Below, one piece after another: positions 4,170-15,374 of a stretch of 64,000 bases of DNA. The position numbers and the translations under genes were made by a program. The notes below the pieces were generated by a model. It worked only from the letters and a program-made list of their open reading frames with translations. It had not been told where the DNA came from and searched no databases. Origin of the DNA: Synergistaceae bacterium (GTDB taxonomy: Bacteria; Synergistota; Synergistia; Synergistales; Aminobacteriaceae). How positions within the stretch are numbered: the first letter of the stretch is position 1; each line of letters begins with the position of its first letter. The stretch is taken from NCBI GenBank assembly GCA_017448795.1, contig JAFSKV010000053.1, positions 1-64,000 of the forward strand, written 5' to 3'.

Positions 4170-5636
4170 TTAATCGCGGACTAACTCGACTTCAGGTTCA
4201 CGCGGAATGCCGAACAAAGGAATGAACCTGTCCCACCCCGTAACAGTCAGCAAGAGCATAGACACGACAGCAATCCATGACAGATAGTTATGCGTGATTA
4301 CGTCAAGGATTGTTACTGTGCCTTCAGCCGCCGGGTATACAGCGTAGACAATCCCCATGAAGAACGCCATGAAGACATGCCACGGAATAAGCTGTGAGCC
4401 GTAAACCGCCATAGCGTCCGCAAGAGTCGCGTTCCTAAGCGCAAGCCTGTACATGGCCGCGGGGCTTCCCTTGACGTTCCGTTCGGTCAGGTCCTTGATG
4501 ATGGGTGAGATGGTCGCAATCTCCGCGAAATCGTTGGCGAGGGCGAAATTCCCGATGAGGCACAAGAGTCCGTTGGCGAAAATCAGCTGCCTGACGTTCC
4601 GCGCGAACCTCACGACCAGCCCGGCAACCGCCCCAAAAGCGTCCATCCTGCTCATCACGCCCCCGAATGCCACAATCCACAGCACCATCACGATAACCCA
4701 GTTCCCAGCGTCAGAGAAGCTCGCCTGAACCATAGCGACAAACTGCATGACATCCGCAACAGTCCCGGCGCAAAGCCCGCAGAAGAGAGACCCGAATATC
4801 CCCGCGCTGAGGCAAATCAGGGTGTGGACTCCCATTCCCGCAAGCACCAGCACCGCCACGAGGGGAAGCACCATGTACCACGACAAGCCCCCAGCCTGCA
4901 CCTGACGCAGGAGAGTTACAGCCGCCGGACGTTTTTCCGCGAGAGCCTCCCACACTGAGCCGGGAATCTGCGCTATGACCTCGCCGGCGTTGCCCACAGT
5001 GTCAGGAAGATTCATGCTCACAGCCGCAACATAGAACGCCACCGCCCCCAGTCCCAGGCACAACAGCGACCACACGCCCTGATGCTTCACACGGTCAGTT
5101 ATGGCCACGTTCTGGAGGGTTGAGCTTACGACGGTGGTGTCAGAAATCAGCCCTATGTTGTCTCCGAAGCATGACCCGCCCGCAATCGCTGAGACCGTGA
5201 GAATGACGCTCCCGCCGACAATGTGATTCAGCCACAGGAATATCGGAGCGCACGCCGCGAATGTCCCCCACGAAGTTCCGGTTGCTACGGAGAGCACTGC
5301 TGTTACTAGGAGGGCTGTTACCGCGATGAGTTTTGCTGTTACTCCGAGCGAGATTGCCACCGTGATTATCTCAGCGGCAACACCTGTAGCCATGAAGCAC
5401 GTCGCCACCGCGTAAGCCATCTGCAAAATCAGGAACACCAGAACTACCCGCCTCATTCCCTCAACAGCCGCGTCCAGAAGGTCAGAGAACTTCACGTGAG
5501 CGAAGAACATTCCGACAGCCACAGCGTAGAGCATGGCCAGAGGAGTGGCAATGAGTATGTCGAGGCCGGGGCCTATTGCGGAGTTCATCAGCACGCCAAG
5601 AACGACAACGGGACTCAGCTTCAGCAGCTCCAGCAT
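4170..5636 (-). CDS. NhaC-family Na+/H+ antiporter, copy 1
   Basis: A 488-aa polytopic inner-membrane protein. It has the NhaC-family signature: GTSWGTFAACAPI at about residue 124, then GGSCFGDNIGLISDTTVVSS at about 152. The central DN pair in this block is the expected ion-binding site of the family. About 11-12 hydrophobic helices are visible. It is a close full-length paralog of the gene just upstream and begins 22 nt after that gene stops. NhaC members exchange Na+ for H+, and some are amino-acid or lactate/malate exchangers, so the exact substrate is open. Confidence 0.88.
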   Translation of the reverse strand: MLELLKLSPVVVLGVLMNSAIGPGLDILIATPLAMLYAVAVGMFFAHVKFSDLLDAAVEGMRRVVLVFLILQMAYAVATCFMATGVAAEIITVAISLGVTAKLIAVTALLVTAVLSVATGTSWGTFAACAPIFLWLNHIVGGSVILTVSAIAGGSCFGDNIGLISDTTVVSSTLQNVAITDRVKHQGVWSLLCLGLGAVAFYVAAVSMNLPDTVGNAGEVIAQIPGSVWEALAEKRPAAVTLLRQVQAGGLSWYMVLPLVAVLVLAGMGVHTLICLSAGIFGSLFCGLCAGTVADVMQFVAMVQASFSDAGNWVIVMVLWIVAFGGVMSRMDAFGAVAGLVVRFARNVRQLIFANGLLCLIGNFALANDFAEIATISPIIKDLTERNVKGSPAAMYRLALRNATLADAMAVYGSQLIPWHVFMAFFMGIVYAVYPAAEGTVTILDVITHNYLSWIAVVSMLLLTVTGWDRFIPLFGIPREPEVELVRD

Positions 5637-5658
5637 TAAGGTTGCGCCTCCCTGTCAG

Positions 5659-7125
5659 CTAGTTCTTCACGAGCTCAACTTCAGGCTCACGCGGAAGACT
5701 GAACAGCGGTATGAACCTGTCCAGCCCGGTGAGAGTCAGCAGAAGCATAGACACGACCGCAATCCACGCAAGATAGTTGTGAGTGATGATGTCCATGATG
5801 TCGACCGTGCCTTCAGCTTCAGGGTAGACGGCATAAGCAATTCCCACGAAGAAAGCAAGGTAGACGTGCCACGGGATGAGCTGAGAACCGAACACTCCCA
5901 TTGCGTCAGAGAACGTTGCGTTCCTCAGAGCGAGCTTGTACATGGCCTTTGCGTCTCCCTTGACGTGGCGGTCAGTGAGGTCCTTGATGATCGGGGACAT
6001 GGTTACTATCTGCGCCATCTCGTCAGCAAGGGCGGCGTTCCCCACGAGGCACAATAACCCGTTCGCGAACATGAGCTGTTTCACGTTATGGACGCACTTC
6101 ATGACCAGCGCGGCGATTGCGTCAAAGGCATTCATCCTCCTCATCACTCCGCCGAACGCGCCAATCCATAGCATCATGACGACAACCCAGCTCCCAGCGT
6201 CAGCAAAACTCGACTGCACCATCTCGAGGAACTTCATCACGTCCGTAACAGTCCCGGCAATCCATCCGCAAATCAGCGAGCCGAGTATCCCAGCGCCGAG
6301 GCAGATCAGCGTGTTCGCGCCAATTCCGGCAAGCACAAGCACAGCGATTAACGGAAGCACCATGTACCACGAGAGTCCGCCCGCCTGAACCTGCTTGAGC
6401 AACGTAACAGCCGCGGGTCTCTTCTCCTCAAGGGCAGCCCAGACGGATTCGGGTATCTGCGCTATTGCCTCGTTCGCGTTGCCGAGAGTGTCAGGAAGCC
6501 CCATGTTCACCGCCGCGAAATAGAACGCCACAGCTCCCGCAACAAGGCACAGGAACGACCACACACCTTGATGCCTGACTCTGTCGGTGATGACGACTCC
6601 CTGAAGGGATGAGCTGACTACCGTTGTGTCCGAGATTAGGCCGATGTTGTCGCCGAAGCATGAGCCTCCTGCTATCGCCGCGATGGTGAGGACGACTGAG
6701 CCGCCCACAATGCGGTTGAGCCAGAGGAAGATAGGAGCGCAGGCCGCGAACGTTCCCCATGAAGTGCCGGTTGCGATTGAGAGTATTGCGGTTACTACGA
6801 GGGCGGTAACGGCTATGAGCTTGGCTGTGATTCCGAGAGAGAGGGCTATGCTGATGATTTCAGCGGCGACTCCCGTCTCCATGAAGCAGGTTGCGACAGC
6901 GTAGGCCATCTGTAGAATCAGGAACACGAAGACGATGTGCTTCATGCTCTCGATTGCGGAGTCCATGAGGTCGGAGAACCTGACGCGCGAGAATATCATC
7001 CCGACAAGAATCGCGTAGACCATAGCGAGGGGCGCGGCAAGAAGGATGTCGAGTCCCAGCCCCACAGTGCCGTTCATGAGGAAGCCCAGAACGATGACCG
7101 GGCTTAGTTTGACCAGAGCCAACAT
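5659..7125 (-). CDS. NhaC-family Na+/H+ antiporter, copy 2
   Basis: A 488-aa NhaC-family antiporter with the same landmarks as its neighbour (GTSWGT, then GGSCFGDNIGLISDTTVVSS) and the same C-terminal LP-REPEVELV ending. The open frame runs upstream to 7536. I place the start at 7125 because it gives the same length as the paralog, begins with the matching MLALVKLSP, and has an AGGAG site about 14-18 nt upstream. The upstream extension reads through the divergent glycosyltransferase gene and is low-complexity shadow. The pair looks like a tandem duplication. Confidence 0.88.
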   Translation of the reverse strand: MLALVKLSPVIVLGFLMNGTVGLGLDILLAAPLAMVYAILVGMIFSRVRFSDLMDSAIESMKHIVFVFLILQMAYAVATCFMETGVAAEIISIALSLGITAKLIAVTALVVTAILSIATGTSWGTFAACAPIFLWLNRIVGGSVVLTIAAIAGGSCFGDNIGLISDTTVVSSSLQGVVITDRVRHQGVWSFLCLVAGAVAFYFAAVNMGLPDTLGNANEAIAQIPESVWAALEEKRPAAVTLLKQVQAGGLSWYMVLPLIAVLVLAGIGANTLICLGAGILGSLICGWIAGTVTDVMKFLEMVQSSFADAGSWVVVMMLWIGAFGGVMRRMNAFDAIAALVMKCVHNVKQLMFANGLLCLVGNAALADEMAQIVTMSPIIKDLTDRHVKGDAKAMYKLALRNATFSDAMGVFGSQLIPWHVYLAFFVGIAYAVYPEAEGTVDIMDIITHNYLAWIAVVSMLLLTLTGLDRFIPLFSLPREPEVELVKN

Positions 7126-7230
7126 GATTTGTTTATCACTCCTGAAAATGGATTTGCGGGTAATTGTAGCAGATTTGCGCGCGGACTGTATACTTAGCGG
7201 GACTAACGGCAAAGGAGGCTGTAAGGTTTC

Positions 7231-8424
7231 ATGCGTGTGCTGTTTATCGATGAGTACTGCGGGGCGAGAAGCACCGGAAAAATCGTGCGTGGTCTTGCGG
7301 AACGATACATGAGTGAAGGCCATGAAGTGATGGCGGCCCATGGGAGGATTGACTTTGTGCCGGAGGATTTCAGGAAGTACTCCGTGAGAATAGGGACGAT
7401 GAGGGATGTTTACTTTCACGCGCTGATGACGAGGCTGACTGACAGGGCGGGTTTCTATTCGCGTGGGGCAACTAGGAAATTCCTCAAGTGGGCGGATGAG
7501 TATGACCCGAATTTTCTGTGGCTCCACAACATTCACGGCTACTACGTCAACATAGAGTTATTGTTCACGTGGATAAAGTCCCGGCCAAACATGCGTGTGA
7601 ACTGGACGTTGCATGACTGCTGGACATTCACCGGGCATTGCTCGTACTTCACGTTTGCGGGCTGTGAGAAGTGGAAGACTCACTGTGAGCACTGTCCCCA
7701 AAAGAACCGATACCCTTTGAGCTTTGTCGACGCGAGTTACAGGAACTACGAGGACAAGCGGCGGCTGTTCACTGGAGTCCGGGACATGACGATAATCACG
7801 CCTTCACAGTGGCTTGCTGACCTGGTGAAGCAGAGTTACTTGCGTGAATACCCGGTTGAGGTGAGGCACAACACGATAGACACGGAGATATTCAGGCCTC
7901 GACCGTCGGATTTCCGGGAGCGTTTCGGGCTTGTGGGGAAGAAAATCGTGCTTGGGGTTGCGGCTGTGTGGGACGAACGGAAGGGGCTTGATGATTTCGT
8001 GAGGCTTGCGGCGATGCTTGACTCGGAGAAGTTTGCGGTGGTTCTTGTGGGACTCACGCCCCGGCAGGTCAAGGCACTTTCCGGGAATATCGCAGTGATT
8101 GACGTGAAGGCCGGGAAAACTCAGACCGCCAATCAGCCGGACAAGTCAGCAATTAGCAGTAGAAGGGGGGGGGCTGCTACCTACTGCATATACAGAACCA
8201 ACAACCAGCTTCAGCTCGCCGAAATCTACACTGCCGCCGACGTATTCTTCATGCCGAGCTGGGAGGAGAACTACCCCACCGTATGCCTTGAGGCTGAGGC
8301 CTGCGGAACACCAGTCGTCGCCTACAACGCCGGAGGGACTCCCGAAACATTGCATGACCCGCGCTCGAAGCTCGTTGAGCCGGGAGACCTCGAAACCGTC
8401 CGTAAGATTCTCACCACACTGTAA
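7231..8424 (+). CDS. GT4-like glycosyltransferase with an extra segment carrying a G9 tract
   Basis: A 397-aa protein of the GT-B type, probably a surface-glycan transferase. The C-terminal half has the family features: a nucleotide-sugar region around VLGVAAVWDERKGL, then AEIYTAADVFFMPSWEENYP and the E-x7-E type LEAEACGTPVVAYNAGGTPE. The N-terminal half is rich in Cys and His (HDCWTFTGHC, GCEKWKTHCEHCPQ). Compared with the adjacent paralog there is an extra stretch of about 30 residues (8101-8190) just before the donor-binding region, containing nine consecutive G (8165-8173). Loss or gain of a base there would truncate the protein before its EAEACGTP motif. The start is preceded by AAAGGAGG. 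Confidence 0.85.
   Translation: MRVLFIDEYCGARSTGKIVRGLAERYMSEGHEVMAAHGRIDFVPEDFRKYSVRIGTMRDVYFHALMTRLTDRAGFYSRGATRKFLKWADEYDPNFLWLHNIHGYYVNIELLFTWIKSRPNMRVNWTLHDCWTFTGHCSYFTFAGCEKWKTHCEHCPQKNRYPLSFVDASYRNYEDKRRLFTGVRDMTIITPSQWLADLVKQSYLREYPVEVRHNTIDTEIFRPRPSDFRERFGLVGKKIVLGVAAVWDERKGLDDFVRLAAMLDSEKFAVVLVGLTPRQVKALSGNIAVIDVKAGKTQTANQPDKSAISSRRGGAATYCIYRTNNQLQLAEIYTAADVFFMPSWEENYPTVCLEAEACGTPVVAYNAGGTPETLHDPRSKLVEPGDLETVRKILTTL
8101..8190. repeat. 90-bp segment absent from the paralog, with inverted repeat and G9 tract
   Basis: By alignment with the gene at 8501 this segment is additional. It contains the perfect inverted repeat gcagtag (8155-8161) and ctactgc (about 8182-8188), with the G9 run at 8165-8173 in the loop. 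The segment is a multiple of three and is in frame at present. Confidence 0.6.
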
Positions 8425-8500
8425 CTCCTCATCACCGAAAGTTTGCGCATCGCCCGTACGCCCTGCGGGAAAAGCAGCATGAAGGGGGGCGGCGGGTTTC

Positions 8501-9604
8501 ATGCGTGTACTTCTTATCGACAAGCATTGCGGAACAGGCGGGCCCGGTAAAGTTGCCGCTGGTATTGCCGGGAAATTTGAGCGCGAAGGACATGAAGCCA
8601 GGATTGCTTACGGCAGAAGCGGTTTTGTGCCGGAGAAATTCAGGAAGTATGCCGTCAGAATCGGGACAATGAAGGACGTTTATCTTCACGCGGTCATGAC
8701 AAGGCTGACTGACAGAACAGGCTTCTATTCGCGGAAGGCAACGGAGGATTTCCTGCGCTGGGCGGATGAATATGACCCCGGCCTTCTCTGGCTTCACAAC
8801 ATTCACGGCTACTACGTCAACATTGAGCTGTTATTCGACTGGATAAAGTCCCGGCCAAACATGAAAGTGAACTGGACGCTTCACGACTGCTGGGCGTTCA
8901 CCGGACACTGCGCGTACTTCACGATGGCAGGCTGCGGAAAATGGCGGACTCACTGCGAACATTGCCCCCAGAAAAACACGTACCCTGCAAGTTTTGTTGA
9001 CGGAAGTTACAGGAACTACGAGGACAAACGGCGGCTGTTCACGGGTGTTCATGACATGACGATAATCACCCCGTCGCAATGGCTGGCGGGACTCGTCGGG
9101 CAAAGTTTCCTGGGCGGATACCCGGTTGAGGTCCAGAAAGTCGAGATCAGCAGGGAGATATTCCGCCCCAGGCCTTCAGGCTTCCGTGAGAAATCCGGGC
9201 TTGCCGGGAAAATTATCGTGCTTGGTGTCGCCAACGTCTGGGACAAAAGGAAAGGGCTCGATGATTTTGTGAAACTGTCAGGGATGCTTGACCGTGAAAG
9301 ATTCGCTGTTGTTCTTGTTGGAGTGAGCAGGAAACAAGCCAAGTCCCTCCCGGAAGGAATAATCACAATCCAGCGCACAGAAAGCCAGAAGGAGCTTGCG
9401 GAGATTTACACCGCCGCTGATGTGTTCTTCATGCCGAGCTGTGAGGAGAATTACCCGGCCGTATGCCTCGAAGCTGAGGCCTGCGGGACTCCCGTCATAG
9501 CCTACAACGCAGGAGGCACCCCGGAAACGCTTCATGACCCGCGCTCAAAGCTAGTTGAAATCGGAGACATTGAGGCCGTCCGCAAAATTATCACCGAAAT
9601 GTAG
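8501..9604 (+). CDS. GT4-like glycosyltransferase, tandem paralog
   Basis: A 367-aa GT-B glycosyltransferase closely similar end to end to the gene at 7231. It has the same Cys/His-rich N-terminal half (HDCWAFTGHC, GCGKWRTHCEHCPQ) and the same C-terminal donor site (AEIYTAADVFFMPSCEENYP, LEAEACGTPVIAYNAGGTPE). It lacks the G-tract segment of the first copy, so it looks like the undisturbed form. A G-rich stretch (aaggggggcggcggg) just before the ATG serves as the ribosome site. Acceptor and donor sugars cannot be told from sequence. Confidence 0.86.
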   Translation: MRVLLIDKHCGTGGPGKVAAGIAGKFEREGHEARIAYGRSGFVPEKFRKYAVRIGTMKDVYLHAVMTRLTDRTGFYSRKATEDFLRWADEYDPGLLWLHNIHGYYVNIELLFDWIKSRPNMKVNWTLHDCWAFTGHCAYFTMAGCGKWRTHCEHCPQKNTYPASFVDGSYRNYEDKRRLFTGVHDMTIITPSQWLAGLVGQSFLGGYPVEVQKVEISREIFRPRPSGFREKSGLAGKIIVLGVANVWDKRKGLDDFVKLSGMLDRERFAVVLVGVSRKQAKSLPEGIITIQRTESQKELAEIYTAADVFFMPSCEENYPAVCLEAEACGTPVIAYNAGGTPETLHDPRSKLVEIGDIEAVRKIITEM

Positions 9605-9668: not shown

Positions 9669-12600
9669 CTATGAGCTTGAGCTGCTACTGCTGGATGATG
9701 TGCCGTTGAGCTGGTTGAGGATTGCCGCGATTGAGCTTGCCTGCTGTGTGAGGCGTGAGAGCTGAGTCTCCGTGTTGCCGTATTTCGTCCTCAATTGCTC
9801 CTCCATGCGGTCGAGTCTGTCCTGGTAGTTCTCCAAGTACTCGTTGATGCTGTCGATTTGCGTCTGAATGTTCTCGATTTCACGCGTCAGTGTCCCGGAA
9901 GTCTCGCCTGTCGCGGAGCTGGTCAGCATTGACTTTGTCCACGTGTCGAACTGAGTCACAAACTTCAGCATCAACGCCTGAACCTCGTCCGGGTTGTCCT
10001 CAAGAGCCGTCATGAACTCGTCCGGGTCAAACACCAATTCACCGCTCTTGCCGTAATCGTCTGAAGTAGTCTCGATTCCTATCTGGTACAAGCCCTTGTA
10101 GGTGTAGTTCATCTTCAGTGCGTTCATGGCCGCGGAGCCTGACATTGTGATTTCGTCGCTTGATGTCGAGTTTATCACCAGCATATCATTTTCCACGCTC
10201 GCACGCAGAAGGGGAGCCTGCAATTTGTTGCCGTTATCGTCATAGTAGATGTCATTCATAGGCCCGCCCTTTGTGTCATCGCTGATTTTGTCGACGATTG
10301 TCTGCAGCGTGTCCGCCGGGTCAATCGTAACGTCAACATACTTTGTGCCTATCCTGAGCCTGAGAGTCGACGATGAACGCAGGCCGTTATAGCCCATTGT
10401 GCCGTAGACTTCCGAGCTGCTCTTGCGCTGTGTGAACGAGAACGTGAAGTTTTGGGATGTCAGGTTGCGCATCTGGCTCTTTGTCTGGCGCAATAATGAG
10501 TTGCCGTGAAGGAGTCCCCATCTCATGCGGAAGTCGTCAGAGTCAACTGTTGCCTTTGTGTCCTCGTCAAGCTGGCTTTCAGTCATGCGCGTGTTCATCC
10601 AGCTCATGAGGTCATTGTATGTGTCAACAAAAGTCTGAATAGACTCGACGGCCTTCTCTGCATCGTGAGAGATGTCAAGTGATACTTCACCCGTGCCTTT
10701 GAGGTGCATTGTTACGCCCTTGATTAACTCGTTGTCGTAATCCGCACCGATGTCGTTAGATGCCCTGTAGACAGTCTCGCCGTCAAGAACAAGCTCCGCG
10801 TCCTGAGCCTCCGTAACGTCATCATTCAGCCCAAGTAGAGTCGCCGCTTCCCCTGTAACCTCGAAGGTGTTTGCGTCATACTCATATTCAACCGTCAGCT
10901 CATCGCCGGATGAAGGCAGCCCGCTTCTTGATGTGAGCGTGGGAGTTATCCAGTTGAACGTGAAATCCCCGCCTCCGTTGTCAGTGATGTCGATTGAGTA
11001 TGCCGTGCGTATAGCTGCGCGCCCGTCAGTGCCTGAGATTGCGTTTCCGTCGTCGTCATAGTCCGGTTCAGTGTCAAGTTTGTACGGCAGGTCGCTTCCG
11101 TACTGGACTGTGAGCGAGCCTCCCGCCGTGGTCATCCCGTAACCGGCCATGTTAAGGGACTCGCTCGCGCTTCTGTAGGCGGTGTAGCTTGCTGCGCTTC
11201 CGTCATCGGATGTGTAGTTGATGGTGTAGGTTGTGCCGGGGTTGGGGTAATACCACTCTGTTCCGCCGGAGCGGTCATTGAGCCAGTAAATTTCAGCGTT
11301 GCCGTCATCGTCGGAGTTGATGATGTAGTCCTCATTCTCGTAGAAAGTTTTTGCTCCCTGCGTGATTGTGGTGTGTCCTTCGAGCGTCGAGGCTTTGGGG
11401 TACGTGAGGGCTGTGTTCAGGGAGAAGCTGTAGCTTCCTGTCGGCCTTGAGCCTGAGAATGTGCTTGTGCCTGTGCTGTCTGTCACGTAGACTGTGTAGC
11501 TTCCCGCGCTTGAGCTGTCCTGTGTCCGCCATGATGAGCGGCCTGTTATCGACATGTCAGAGCCGTCGCTGGCTAGGTCATAGAGCCTTGTTCTGCTGCC
11601 TTTGACGACCTTGACCGTGTACGTCCCCGCGTCAAGGATTGAACCGTCGTCCATCTTGAACACTGCTTCGCCGTCTGACCCCGCGCTTATGGTGAAGCCT
11701 GTTACTTCGTTTCCGTCTGAGTCTGTTACTGTGATTGATGTCGCGTCCTTGAAATATGCATCATAGTCCGGCGTTCCTGAAGGAGCGTTATCCAGCCAGT
11801 TAATCACAGCGTAGCCCATTCCGTCTTGGGACACAGTGAAATCCGTACCCATGAGGAAAGTTTCTCCGTTGCCCTGTATTCTGACTTCGGAGGCATTCTG
11901 AAATCTGGAGTACAGAGGCCGTGATGACGTGTCGACTGTTGGGTTGATTGTGTCGGTTGCCGAACGTTTAACGCCGTCAGTTGTGAGAACCTCGCCGCCG
12001 CCTTCACCGCGCCCGGTGTAAGTGAGGGTGATTGCCGCGCCGGATGAAGGAGTGTTGCCGCCCGAAATCCAGTTTATCATCACATTGTGCTGACTTGTTG
12101 AGCTGTCTGTGTCCGAACCCTGGATGATGGTGTAGTCAGTGCCGTATGTGTACTCGTTGCCGTCCTCGTCAGTGAGGGTGAAATACTTGGCGAAGTCGGA
12201 GTCTGTTGACGAGCTTGTGAGTCCCGTGTCGCTGAGAATCTGCTCGTAGCTTAGGCTGGTGCCGTGGTATTTCCCGTAGCCTGAGTCGACGGTGATCGAG
12301 GCTTCCTGGGTTGACGCGCTGTCATCGTAGGTGGTCTCGGCTGTGAGAGCGTCAAAGGCCTCGTAGGTAAGGGTGTAGCTTCCTGTCGGGCGAGTGGGGG
12401 TCTCTTTGGCCTTGAACCTGATTACCCCGTCGACGATGGTGAATGTGTCATCCGTGAGGCTGTCCTCGTCAGCAACGTATGTGTATGTCTTCCCGCTTGT
12501 GTCGGTTATCTCGATATTGCCGTAGTTCCCGCTGGCATCGCTGATGAGTGAGGCGAGTCCCAATGCGTCGGCGTTGCTCTCAGTGCGTGTGAGGCTGACC

Positions 12601-15374
12601 CTGTAGTCCGAGCTTGGGCGGTTATGCTGTGTTCCTGAGAGGTCGACCGTGCCGTATTTGTCCGGGTCGGATGTTACGAGGTCAGAGTAAGACGTGACTT
12701 CGGGTCTGCTGTAGAAGGCTACCAGAGTGTGGGTGCTTGACGCGCTGGCATCGTCTGACTTCCTGATTGTGTAATCCCTGCCGTAAACGTAATCGTCTGA
12801 CACGGAATAATTCCCGTCATCATCCTTGAGCGATATGGAGAACTTGTAATCCTGCGTTGATGAGGGGCTGTACACGTCAACTGTCCTTACAGTCCTGCTT
12901 CCGCCGTTCACGTCAACAGTCTCGAAGCCGTAGCCTATGACGGTGTCAATCTTGGGGAAAGTAGCCCCTCCGCTTGAGAGCGCGTCATAATTTGTCTTCG
13001 AGGTGTCTGGTGTGATGTCGGCTTGGGCGGCGGTGAACTTCACGGTGTAGGATGCCGTAGCGTCCGTGTTCTGGTTAATCCACGTGATATTTCCTGAGCT
13101 GTCGACCGCGTAGTCAGTGCCGGAATAGGTATTGCCGCTTGAGTCGGTGATTGTGAGCGTGATTCCGTCGAGGCTGTCCAGACCCAGTAGGCTGTAGAGG
13201 TTCTTTGTGCTGGCCGAGTCTGTCTTGTTCACGGTGGCTGACCCTGTGGACGTAACGTCCTTGCTGAAGTTAAGCTCGAACGTTTTATCTTCGTCGGGGG
13301 CAGACTGCATTCCGTACGTGGAAATATTTTTCTCCTGCGCGTATGTAGTCAGCACCGTATCAGCGTCTTTTATGTCCTTCTGGCCGTCTCCGTTCGTGTC
13401 AGAGCTTATCGCCCACGTTACGCAGTACCCGTCCCCCGCGTCATTGACCCGGACAACGTAGTCCCTGCCATATTCATATGTCTTGCCGTCTTCGTCAGTC
13501 ATCGTGAAGCTGGAGTCGCCCGCAAGGTCAAGATATGTCCTCAGCACCCCGTTTCCGTCAGCTAGCGTTATTCTCGGAATTTCGTCTGTCCCGTTCGCGG
13601 AATTGTACTGCGAGGCTATACCGCTCATGTCAATATCATCGTCGCTTGTGAGAAGCCAGACTATTTGTCCGCCTATGACCGTGAAATCCCCGTTGTCGTA
13701 ACTGAACTCACGATCACTTGATGAATCCTTGACTACCAGCCCGCTGTAACCTCCGCTGTCATTCAGGGCCGCAGTCAGGACATCAACAAGCGGTTTGCCT
13801 GAGCCGTCGGTGTTGTAAGTATCCGTGTGGGTGTAGGTGATGGCGAATGTGTCGCCGACATTGGGAGACGAGCCTGTTGTTGTGCTTGTATGAAGTATGT
13901 TAGTCCTGTAGTCGTCGATGAAATTTTTTGCGCCTGTTGTGGTCTCATTCCAAGAGATGGCCAGTGAGTTGCTGGTTGCGCCCCTGCGCAGGACATAGTC
14001 CTTGCCGTACTCGTAGCCGTCTATGGAAATGTTGTCCATGCCTGTAACGTAAGTTGGCTTGAAGCCGTTGACAGTTCCTGTGCTGACCTGGGAAAGCCCG
14101 CTCGTGCTGGACAGCCCTTCAGCATCTGCATAGTCTTGAAGGAAATCTGTGAACGTAGACTTGCTGCTTGTGCCGTCAAATGAATAGCTGCCTACGGACT
14201 GGTTTCCGCCGGAATACGTAACTGAGGCTAACTGTGTTGTCTTCGTGTAGCTGACTGTATAGTTCGTAGGGCCGACTGGTGATTTTATGCTTTGTGCCGC
14301 GGCGGATTTGGTCTCGGTCTTGCTGTAGCCCACAGTGTACTTGTCCGGCTCATTGGTCTTAGTGCTGCCGTCGTCAAGCCACACTACTTTGTTGTCCGTA
14401 ATCGTGAAGTCCGTCCCGTAAGTGTATGTGTTGCCGTCCGAGTCCGTAATCTTCACGCGCTTGCTGAGAGTCCCGTTGTCGGTCATCGTGAAGCCTGAAA
14501 TTTCCGCCTCACTCGTGCCGTAAGTCCCGGTTTTCGTGTAGACATCACCCGCGGCCATCCTGTAATTCACGCTCACAGTGTCATTCAGGGCGACTTCCTT
14601 GCTCCTGTCATACTGCTTCCAGCGGATTTCGTTTCCGTTGGCGACCGTAAAATCCGTGCCGTATGTGTAGGACGTGCTGCCCTTGGAGATTTTGAGGTTC
14701 TTCGCGTCGGATGATGTTACGGAGATGTTCGAGAGCCTGTTCACGCCCGACGCGCTGTAGTTGATGGTCTCACTTGCTGTGCGTGTTCCGAGCCCTGTGT
14801 TGTCGCTCTTGAGGATTAGCTTGTTGTCGACCACTGAGGCCGTAACCGCAAGAGGATTGGCGAGAGTCTTCAGCGTGTTGTTGATGCGGGACTTCACCGC
14901 TTCGAGGCTGTCTGTAGCGTTCACGTCAATAGCAACCTTCTGGCCTCCCATGTTGACGTAGAATGTCGATGAAGTCAGGCCGTTCAGAGTGCTTGCGAGG
15001 GTTGACGAGGTGATCTGCTTGGAGCGGTTGATCTGGGCTGTTGCGAGCTTGTTGACCTTCAAGTCCCACACGTTGACTTCTGCGTCTGCGTTGACTGTTG
15101 CGGTCAGGACTCCTTTGTACGAGCCTGATGTGTCTATGCGCTCGATGTCTATTGTCTTGGCCTTGTAAGTTGACGGGAGCTTCAGGGGCGACAATGAGGA
15201 CTGAAGGCTGTTCATAGTAACCTTCATTTCCTCGAAGAGCGATTTCTTATTTGTCAGGTTGGTCTTCTTGTTGACTTTGACCTGCGCGGGCTTGGCGGCA
15301 TTGGTGATGATTTCGTCGATCATGCTGTCCCAGTCCATGCCGGAAACCACGCCTGACACGCTCATTGATGCCAT
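9669..15374 (-). CDS. fliD: Giant FliD-like flagellar filament cap protein
   Basis: A 1901-aa protein; ordinary FliD is about 450-700 aa. The N-terminus (MSVSGVVSGMDWDSMIDEII, about 1-115) is a FliD N-domain that anchors to the hook-filament end, and about 130-205 resembles the flagellin-hook IN region. The C-terminus (about 1500-1885) is a FliD C-domain: LLGLNDDVTEAQDAEL, INSTSSDEITMSG, FDPDEFMTALEDNPDEVQAL, then coiled coil and a Ser run. In between, about 1,270 residues form divergent repeats. Each has a T/S-D-x-x-G-x-x-Y-x-YG-(T/R/K)-D-(Y/F) turn, then about 10-25 residues and an I-x-W strand; turns lie near 238, 319, 456, 635, 753, 865, 1078, 1177 and 1348. It is rich in Ser, Thr, Asp and Tyr and has no Cys after a scan of most units except one near 651. 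The insert is probably surface-exposed and adhesin-like; that is inference. Confidence 0.85.
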   Translation of the reverse strand: MASMSVSGVVSGMDWDSMIDEIITNAAKPAQVKVNKKTNLTNKKSLFEEMKVTMNSLQSSLSPLKLPSTYKAKTIDIERIDTSGSYKGVLTATVNADAEVNVWDLKVNKLATAQINRSKQITSSTLASTLNGLTSSTFYVNMGGQKVAIDVNATDSLEAVKSRINNTLKTLANPLAVTASVVDNKLILKSDNTGLGTRTASETINYSASGVNRLSNISVTSSDAKNLKISKGSTSYTYGTDFTVANGNEIRWKQYDRSKEVALNDTVSVNYRMAAGDVYTKTGTYGTSEAEISGFTMTDNGTLSKRVKITDSDGNTYTYGTDFTITDNKVVWLDDGSTKTNEPDKYTVGYSKTETKSAAAQSIKSPVGPTNYTVSYTKTTQLASVTYSGGNQSVGSYSFDGTSSKSTFTDFLQDYADAEGLSSTSGLSQVSTGTVNGFKPTYVTGMDNISIDGYEYGKDYVLRRGATSNSLAISWNETTTGAKNFIDDYRTNILHTSTTTGSSPNVGDTFAITYTHTDTYNTDGSGKPLVDVLTAALNDSGGYSGLVVKDSSSDREFSYDNGDFTVIGGQIVWLLTSDDDIDMSGIASQYNSANGTDEIPRITLADGNGVLRTYLDLAGDSSFTMTDEDGKTYEYGRDYVVRVNDAGDGYCVTWAISSDTNGDGQKDIKDADTVLTTYAQEKNISTYGMQSAPDEDKTFELNFSKDVTSTGSATVNKTDSASTKNLYSLLGLDSLDGITLTITDSSGNTYSGTDYAVDSSGNITWINQNTDATASYTVKFTAAQADITPDTSKTNYDALSSGGATFPKIDTVIGYGFETVDVNGGSRTVRTVDVYSPSSTQDYKFSISLKDDDGNYSVSDDYVYGRDYTIRKSDDASASSTHTLVAFYSRPEVTSYSDLVTSDPDKYGTVDLSGTQHNRPSSDYRVSLTRTESNADALGLASLISDASGNYGNIEITDTSGKTYTYVADEDSLTDDTFTIVDGVIRFKAKETPTRPTGSYTLTYEAFDALTAETTYDDSASTQEASITVDSGYGKYHGTSLSYEQILSDTGLTSSSTDSDFAKYFTLTDEDGNEYTYGTDYTIIQGSDTDSSTSQHNVMINWISGGNTPSSGAAITLTYTGRGEGGGEVLTTDGVKRSATDTINPTVDTSSRPLYSRFQNASEVRIQGNGETFLMGTDFTVSQDGMGYAVINWLDNAPSGTPDYDAYFKDATSITVTDSDGNEVTGFTISAGSDGEAVFKMDDGSILDAGTYTVKVVKGSRTRLYDLASDGSDMSITGRSSWRTQDSSSAGSYTVYVTDSTGTSTFSGSRPTGSYSFSLNTALTYPKASTLEGHTTITQGAKTFYENEDYIINSDDDGNAEIYWLNDRSGGTEWYYPNPGTTYTINYTSDDGSAASYTAYRSASESLNMAGYGMTTAGGSLTVQYGSDLPYKLDTEPDYDDDGNAISGTDGRAAIRTAYSIDITDNGGGDFTFNWITPTLTSRSGLPSSGDELTVEYEYDANTFEVTGEAATLLGLNDDVTEAQDAELVLDGETVYRASNDIGADYDNELIKGVTMHLKGTGEVSLDISHDAEKAVESIQTFVDTYNDLMSWMNTRMTESQLDEDTKATVDSDDFRMRWGLLHGNSLLRQTKSQMRNLTSQNFTFSFTQRKSSSEVYGTMGYNGLRSSSTLRLRIGTKYVDVTIDPADTLQTIVDKISDDTKGGPMNDIYYDDNGNKLQAPLLRASVENDMLVINSTSSDEITMSGSAAMNALKMNYTYKGLYQIGIETTSDDYGKSGELVFDPDEFMTALEDNPDEVQALMLKFVTQFDTWTKSMLTSSATGETSGTLTREIENIQTQIDSINEYLENYQDRLDRMEEQLRTKYGNTETQLSRLTQQASSIAAILNQLNGTSSSSSSSSS
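10900..14680. repeat. Divergent protein-level repeats inside the fliD-like gene
   Basis: About ten units of 90-180 residues carry a YG-x-D-(Y/F)-(T/V) turn followed by an (I/V)-x-W strand. DNA-level identity is low, so the units are old and diverged rather than a recent tandem expansion. Confidence 0.7.

Follow-up and report, generated by a model that had tools for sequence, protein, structure and literature searches.

We analysed a 64-kb stretch of DNA (64,000 nucleotides, here called the window) from a member of the Synergistaceae. On the forward strand, positions 7231..8424 encode a protein of 397 amino acids, glycosyltransferase 1, that belongs to the GT4 / Glycos_transf_1 type and has a GT-B fold (Pfam PF00534, E 4.9e-17). 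As an earlier note on this DNA had stated, the coding region of this gene contains a run of nine G residues (G9; 8165-8173, forward strand). This tract is the proposed slippage switch and the sole G9 run within the window. At its present length, the reading frame of the gene is open (ON). Immediately downstream and on the same strand is a tandem paralog, glycosyltransferase 2 (8501..9604; recognized as an ORF, by alignment and with Pfam), that starts independently, retains a complete N-terminus and contains neither the tract nor the insert described below. The glycosyltransferase pair is convergent with fliD (9669..15374, reverse strand), which encodes the flagellar hook-associated protein 2 (FliD, 1901 aa, with Pfam domains FliD_N and FliD_C). 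The middle region of FliD, between FliD_N and FliD_C, is very long and repetitive. Elsewhere in the window, two tandem paralogous genes for Na+/H+ antiporters are found at 4170-7128 on the reverse strand.

The association of the glycosyltransferase with fliD is not limited to the window. In at least ten further species of the genus, tblastn placed the C-terminal part of FliD near the glycosyltransferase; that is, the gene has the conserved linkage to flagellar genes by which flagellar glycosyltransferases are recognized. Because FliD is near the orthologous glycosyltransferase in other species, a flagellar or surface-glycan role is plausible, and the flagellum, or some other glycan of the surface, may be what the enzyme modifies.

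The tract is inside a 90-bp lineage-specific segment of glycosyltransferase 1 (8101..8190, forward strand) that corresponds to residues 291-320, or to residues 292-321, the edge being ambiguous by one codon. The earlier note had described this segment as lacking in the tandem paralog. We confirmed this and found that the 30 residues are missing from all 33 of the homologues compared, which come from several phyla and include the tandem paralog as one of the 33. The segment is also missing from the approximately 20 orthologues in the genus, save one, and that one has a different, longer extra segment. By these alignments, the 90-bp segment is a true insertion relative to the homologues and is particular to glycosyltransferase 1. 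In an AlphaFold2 model of glycosyltransferase 1 (mean pLDDT of 87), residues 294-312 of the insert had a pLDDT below 50, and the insert is predicted to be a disordered loop in the C-terminal Rossmann domain, located between strand 287-291 and helix 326-335.

Changes in tract length are predicted to alter the product. With G10 or G7, the stop codon would be at 8289..8291 (forward strand) and the product would be ~352 aa with a scrambled C-terminus. With G8 or G11, the stop codon would be at 8480..8482 (forward strand) and the product would be ~416 aa with a wrong C-terminus. The G8 frame is open for 102 codons, and its stop is just upstream of glycosyltransferase 2, adjoining the likely ribosome site of that gene. 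The alternative frames of glycosyltransferase 1 have no resemblance to a glycosyltransferase C-terminus. The C-terminal part of GT-B enzymes is the donor-binding part. This part would be lost in either off-frame, presumably along with enzyme activity. Three features that characterize contingency loci are found together in this gene: a long homopolymeric tract inside the ORF (7231-8424), a product that changes when a change in tract length shifts the frame (computed for the G8 and G10 frames), and a gene category connected to surface structures (a GT4 glycosyltransferase adjoining fliD).

The length of the G9 tract by itself is unremarkable for a 64-kb window. Dinucleotide shuffles gave an expectation of 0.41 G9 runs, and 29 of 100 shuffles had at least one. 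For the whole genome, about nine exact-G9 runs are expected by chance (first-order Markov model), so the tract in the window is not judgeable from its length alone. Further, G9 is the shortest class among the G tracts of nine or more in this genome, and chance runs make up a larger share of it than of any other class. These considerations, and a flank match that is moderate (see below), favor the view that the tract is a chance G9 in a non-essential, lineage-specific loop of a glycosyltransferase, fixed and with no role in switching. Several observations go against this view. An orthologue in another species has a G10 at the same junction, the gene category and the position in a loop agree with those of other tracts, the half-site TCAGCA is present at -19, and the tracts genome-wide are beyond chance. 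Weighing both sides, we consider a chance origin rather unlikely.

The excess of long G tracts in the genome is large. We found 31 G tracts of nine or more in the 2.54-Mb assembly (a draft of 86 contigs). Thirty of these were read for length: five were G9, four G10, six G11, eight G12, four G13, and three G14. There were 25 runs of 10 or more versus 2.9 expected, and 15 runs of 12 or more (G12-G14) versus 0.17 expected (both from the first-order Markov model). The genome-wide long G tracts cannot be chance. The genes with tracts include those for Caps_synth, CotH-like, GDSL, radical SAM/SPASM, TPP enzyme, LRR, DUF6625, MBOAT, GT1, SDR and epimerase proteins, and for four lipoproteins. Long G tracts were present in each of the 43 genomes of the genus (43/43); most genomes from other families had 0-3 tracts of 10 or more.

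To assign frame states to the tract genes, we compared the longest open frame leading into each tract with the longest one following it. About 6-7 genes were ON and 15-16 were OFF. The upstream and downstream frames agreed in ~7 of 23 interpretable cases. Both figures are close to what free slippage would produce: agreement in one third of cases and a 1:2 ratio of ON to OFF. The SDR, epimerase and GT1 genes were ON. The DUF6625 gene was OFF, with a match to positions 1-173 of the profile followed, past the tract, by a match to 184-265 in another frame. Similarly, the TPP_enzyme gene was OFF, with its N part and then its C part in different frames across the tract. The lipoprotein genes (L200, L201, L204 and L215) have a common N-terminal type and tracts (G14, G9, G10 and G12, respectively) directly past the signal peptide, and their states were OFF, ON, ON and OFF. 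Two of the four have weak Pfam matches to the Leukocidin family. The same genome also has a G12 near the 3' end of a gene for an EcoRI-type adenine DNA methyltransferase (L188, region G000:C6:34240; PF13651, E 3.5e-125), making this a candidate phase-variable methyltransferase (phasevarion). The earlier note had proposed that the G9 is a phase-variation tract. The presence of 31 long G tracts, mostly in surface-type genes and in mixed ON and OFF states, supports that proposal, as does the G10 in the orthologue.

We considered that the tracts might be an artefact of assembly or sequencing, that is, poly-G from two-colour chemistry. The genome is a draft, and artefact-like GC palindromes were seen in one other surveyed genome (G149). 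Against this, the coding sequence runs on at both sides of the tracts, the tracts recur at homologous sites across species (interrupted versions included), and a genus-specific flank signature is present in all three reading frames. An artefact seems extremely improbable.

Among the approximately 20 orthologues of the glycosyltransferase in the genus, only one has a tract, a point against a switching role. This orthologue (L010/L109 in G033, Red_deer_3_mag_106) has the G10 at the same junction, and the G10 joins two successive C-terminal halves. The doubled C-terminal half of this protein suggests C-terminal switching. It is conceivable that such a tract serves to join cassettes, linking the N-terminal domain to alternative C-termini and not turning the enzyme on and off. 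Duplicated C-terminal modules in G025, and the long G8 frame of the window gene that ends just before glycosyltransferase 2, are consistent with this, but the alternative frames of the window gene are unlike a glycosyltransferase C-terminus, and glycosyltransferase 2 has a start and N-terminus of its own. We think that C-terminal switching is an unlikely explanation for the window tract. The relative of the glycosyltransferase in G025 (L020) has 565 residues and repeated C-terminal modules with A7-A8 runs. In the Firmicute Blautia wexlerae (L120), there are G9 runs near a homologous glycosyltransferase.

The tract is flanked by the inverted repeat that the earlier note had pointed out, and the match is exact: GCAGTAG on the left (8156..8162) and CTACTGC on the right (8181..8187, both forward strand), the latter being inside the right-flank words CTAC/TACT. 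A perfect inverted repeat at such spacing has one instance in the window, and 9.7% of randomly re-paired tract flanks match its score. The earlier note had taken the repeat to suggest that a small palindromic element brought the tract. An in-frame insertion of such a mobile element (RPE- or MITE-like), with the tract as part of it, would fit with the segment being inserted relative to all homologues and with the similar left arms found in unrelated tract genes, for example ATTACTCTTGC before G12. Other results do not fit. Dispersed elements are present in multiple copies in a genome or genus and have an element-specific inverted repeat, and we found neither: the 2.54-Mb assembly had no second copy of the 90-bp segment and no second copy of the tract-plus-repeat pattern, and the complementarity between left and right flanks was the same for a tract's own pair as for cross-pairs with the flanks of other tracts (z = 0.07). 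A search of Rfam with the region returned nothing beyond a sub-threshold chance match.

Comparisons of the same site in different species, each represented by one genome, provided a further argument against an inserted element. Copies of the DUF6625 gene without a tract (G027, G005, and one copy in G003) align with copies that have G8-G12 at the same site (G000, G016, G034 and G004), and other copies have interrupted runs (G021, G026 and G023). In these genes a glycine codon is where the tract expanded, gene length hardly changed, the flanking codons differ by substitution, and the alignment of tract-less and tract-bearing copies revealed no inserted arm. An extra segment relative to empty sites was seen for glycosyltransferase 1 and not for DUF6625. 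In addition, a long insert could not be accommodated at the tracts of the SDR and epimerase genes, given their profiles. Based on the cross-pair flank test and the DUF6625 comparison, we rejected the palindromic-element model and regard it as very unlikely.

The flanks of the tracts do have something in common, and this genus-specific signature is our most interesting result. We counted words around 92 tracts in five genomes of the genus. Within 25 bp to the left of the tracts, TACGTA was found 25 times (0.31 expected) and GTAATT 21 times (0.53 expected). TACGTAATT was found beside tracts 10 times (0.01 expected), and GTA-N4-TAC was found on the left side 18 times (0.16 expected). Half-sites of the form T[ACG][AC]G[TC]A had a peak exactly at -19, in 17 of the 92 tracts. 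As the words were picked from the very tracts in which they were counted, these enrichments are descriptive; the identical list was applied to the control windows and to the other genera. When the 92 tracts were clustered into 63 unrelated gene families, 47 of the 63 had a word within 25 bp, compared to 4 of 62 control windows. The words were found around 1 of 31 tracts from other genera and around none of the tract-less DUF6625 copies.

Several explanations of the signature were rejected. Redundancy among paralogs is not the cause, since the signal stays after clustering to the 63 families. A cause at the level of protein was also ruled out, as TACGTA is spread over the three reading frames (8/5/5). 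The presence of flank words in all three frames indicates action at the level of DNA or RNA. A stable stem at GTA-N4-TAC is unlikely, as its outer positions pair no better than chance would have them. Given that neither the flanks nor these outer positions show excess complementarity, the signature is not a hairpin, and it is not the border of a palindromic element either. We found no viral contigs that had a tract plus flank words. In five unrelated genes of the genome analysed here (L189, L190, L207, L210 and L213), a left flank like TCAGYAGATTTACTCTTGC is directly before a G11-G12 tract, in differing reading frames. For the sub-group with ATTACTCTTGC, spread by a mobile element is possible; no empty sites were found for this sub-group.

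The fit of the window tract's left flank to the signature is moderate. This flank (TCAGCA-ATTA-GCAGTA-GAA, 8146..8164, forward strand) has TCAGCA at -19, which fits the half-site T[ACG][AC]G[TC]A. Its score with the position weight matrix was 2.59 (leave-one-out), a value reached by 4% of background; the median for the other tracts was 3.13. The right flank begins with CT, without the common YA start; this, like the moderate match on the left, weighs against the tract being a switch.

The flank signature probably arose at the sites where it now stands and was maintained by selection. As the best account of these results, we infer that it is a selected signal that affects tract formation or stability. 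More speculatively, the tracts of this genus might be marked by a sequence-specific DNA signal made up of a half-site T-N-[AC]-G-[TC]-A at -19 and of GTA-N4-TAC and TACGTA words within about 25 bp. Recognition of the signal by a protein or a replication factor might start a tract, extend it or make it unstable. If so, phase variation would be guided, and not slippage at any long G run.

With a probability of roughly 0.78, we conclude that the G9 is a slipped-strand contingency locus and belongs, with ~30 such poly-G switches in this genome, to a phasome that extends across the genus. The context gives this reading good support, short of proof. One G gained or lost at replication would shift the frame inside the C-terminal Rossmann loop, and the enzyme would lose its donor-binding half (OFF), and a length of 9 (or 6 or 12) would restore the reading frame (ON). 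The 90-bp loop is a gene-specific insertion that houses the tract, and slippage in living cells is the step that we infer.

The best-documented cases of poly-G phase variation come from Campylobacter, Helicobacter and Neisseria, which are host-associated. In the literature searched, we found no report of it in Synergistota and none of a comparable flank signature. A phasome in uncultured, Fretibacterium-like Synergistaceae of the rumen/gut would represent unrecognised cell-to-cell diversity of the surface. The flank signature raises the question of whether bacteria use flanking DNA to choose the sites of tracts or to control the rate of slippage.

Rickettsia palindromic elements and MITE-like insertions add in-frame extra segments to coding genes. 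Glycosyltransferase 1 likewise has an in-frame extra segment. Unlike those elements, it is a single copy with no specific palindrome, and tracts elsewhere grow in place. Like the phasome of Neisseria (PMC5084427, PMC5953494), the one proposed here consists of numerous simple-sequence-repeat switches in each genome, located in surface genes; several repeat types are used in Neisseria, whereas our survey covered long G tracts only. Helicobacter canadensis combines phase variation at poly-G tracts with switching of C-terminal sequences (PMC2823697). As in that species, the long poly-G is late in the frame and a frameshift changes or removes the C-terminus. The frameshift in the window gene differs in that it would remove a catalytic half-domain, and the G033 orthologue, with its doubled C-terminal half, is closer to the C-terminal switching of H. 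canadensis. Campylobacter jejuni NCTC 11168 has 29 poly-G/poly-C loci with tracts of seven or more (PMC4965091), and its contingency loci include the flagellin-modification gene Cj1295 (PMC3068675). Our case differs in its phylum (Synergistota), in that switching is proposed here from sequence, and in the genus-specific flank signature, none having been reported for Campylobacter in the papers searched. It is like C. jejuni in having long G tracts in surface-glycan and related genes, at ~30 per genome and in mixed ON and OFF states, with one flagellum-linked glycan gene among them.
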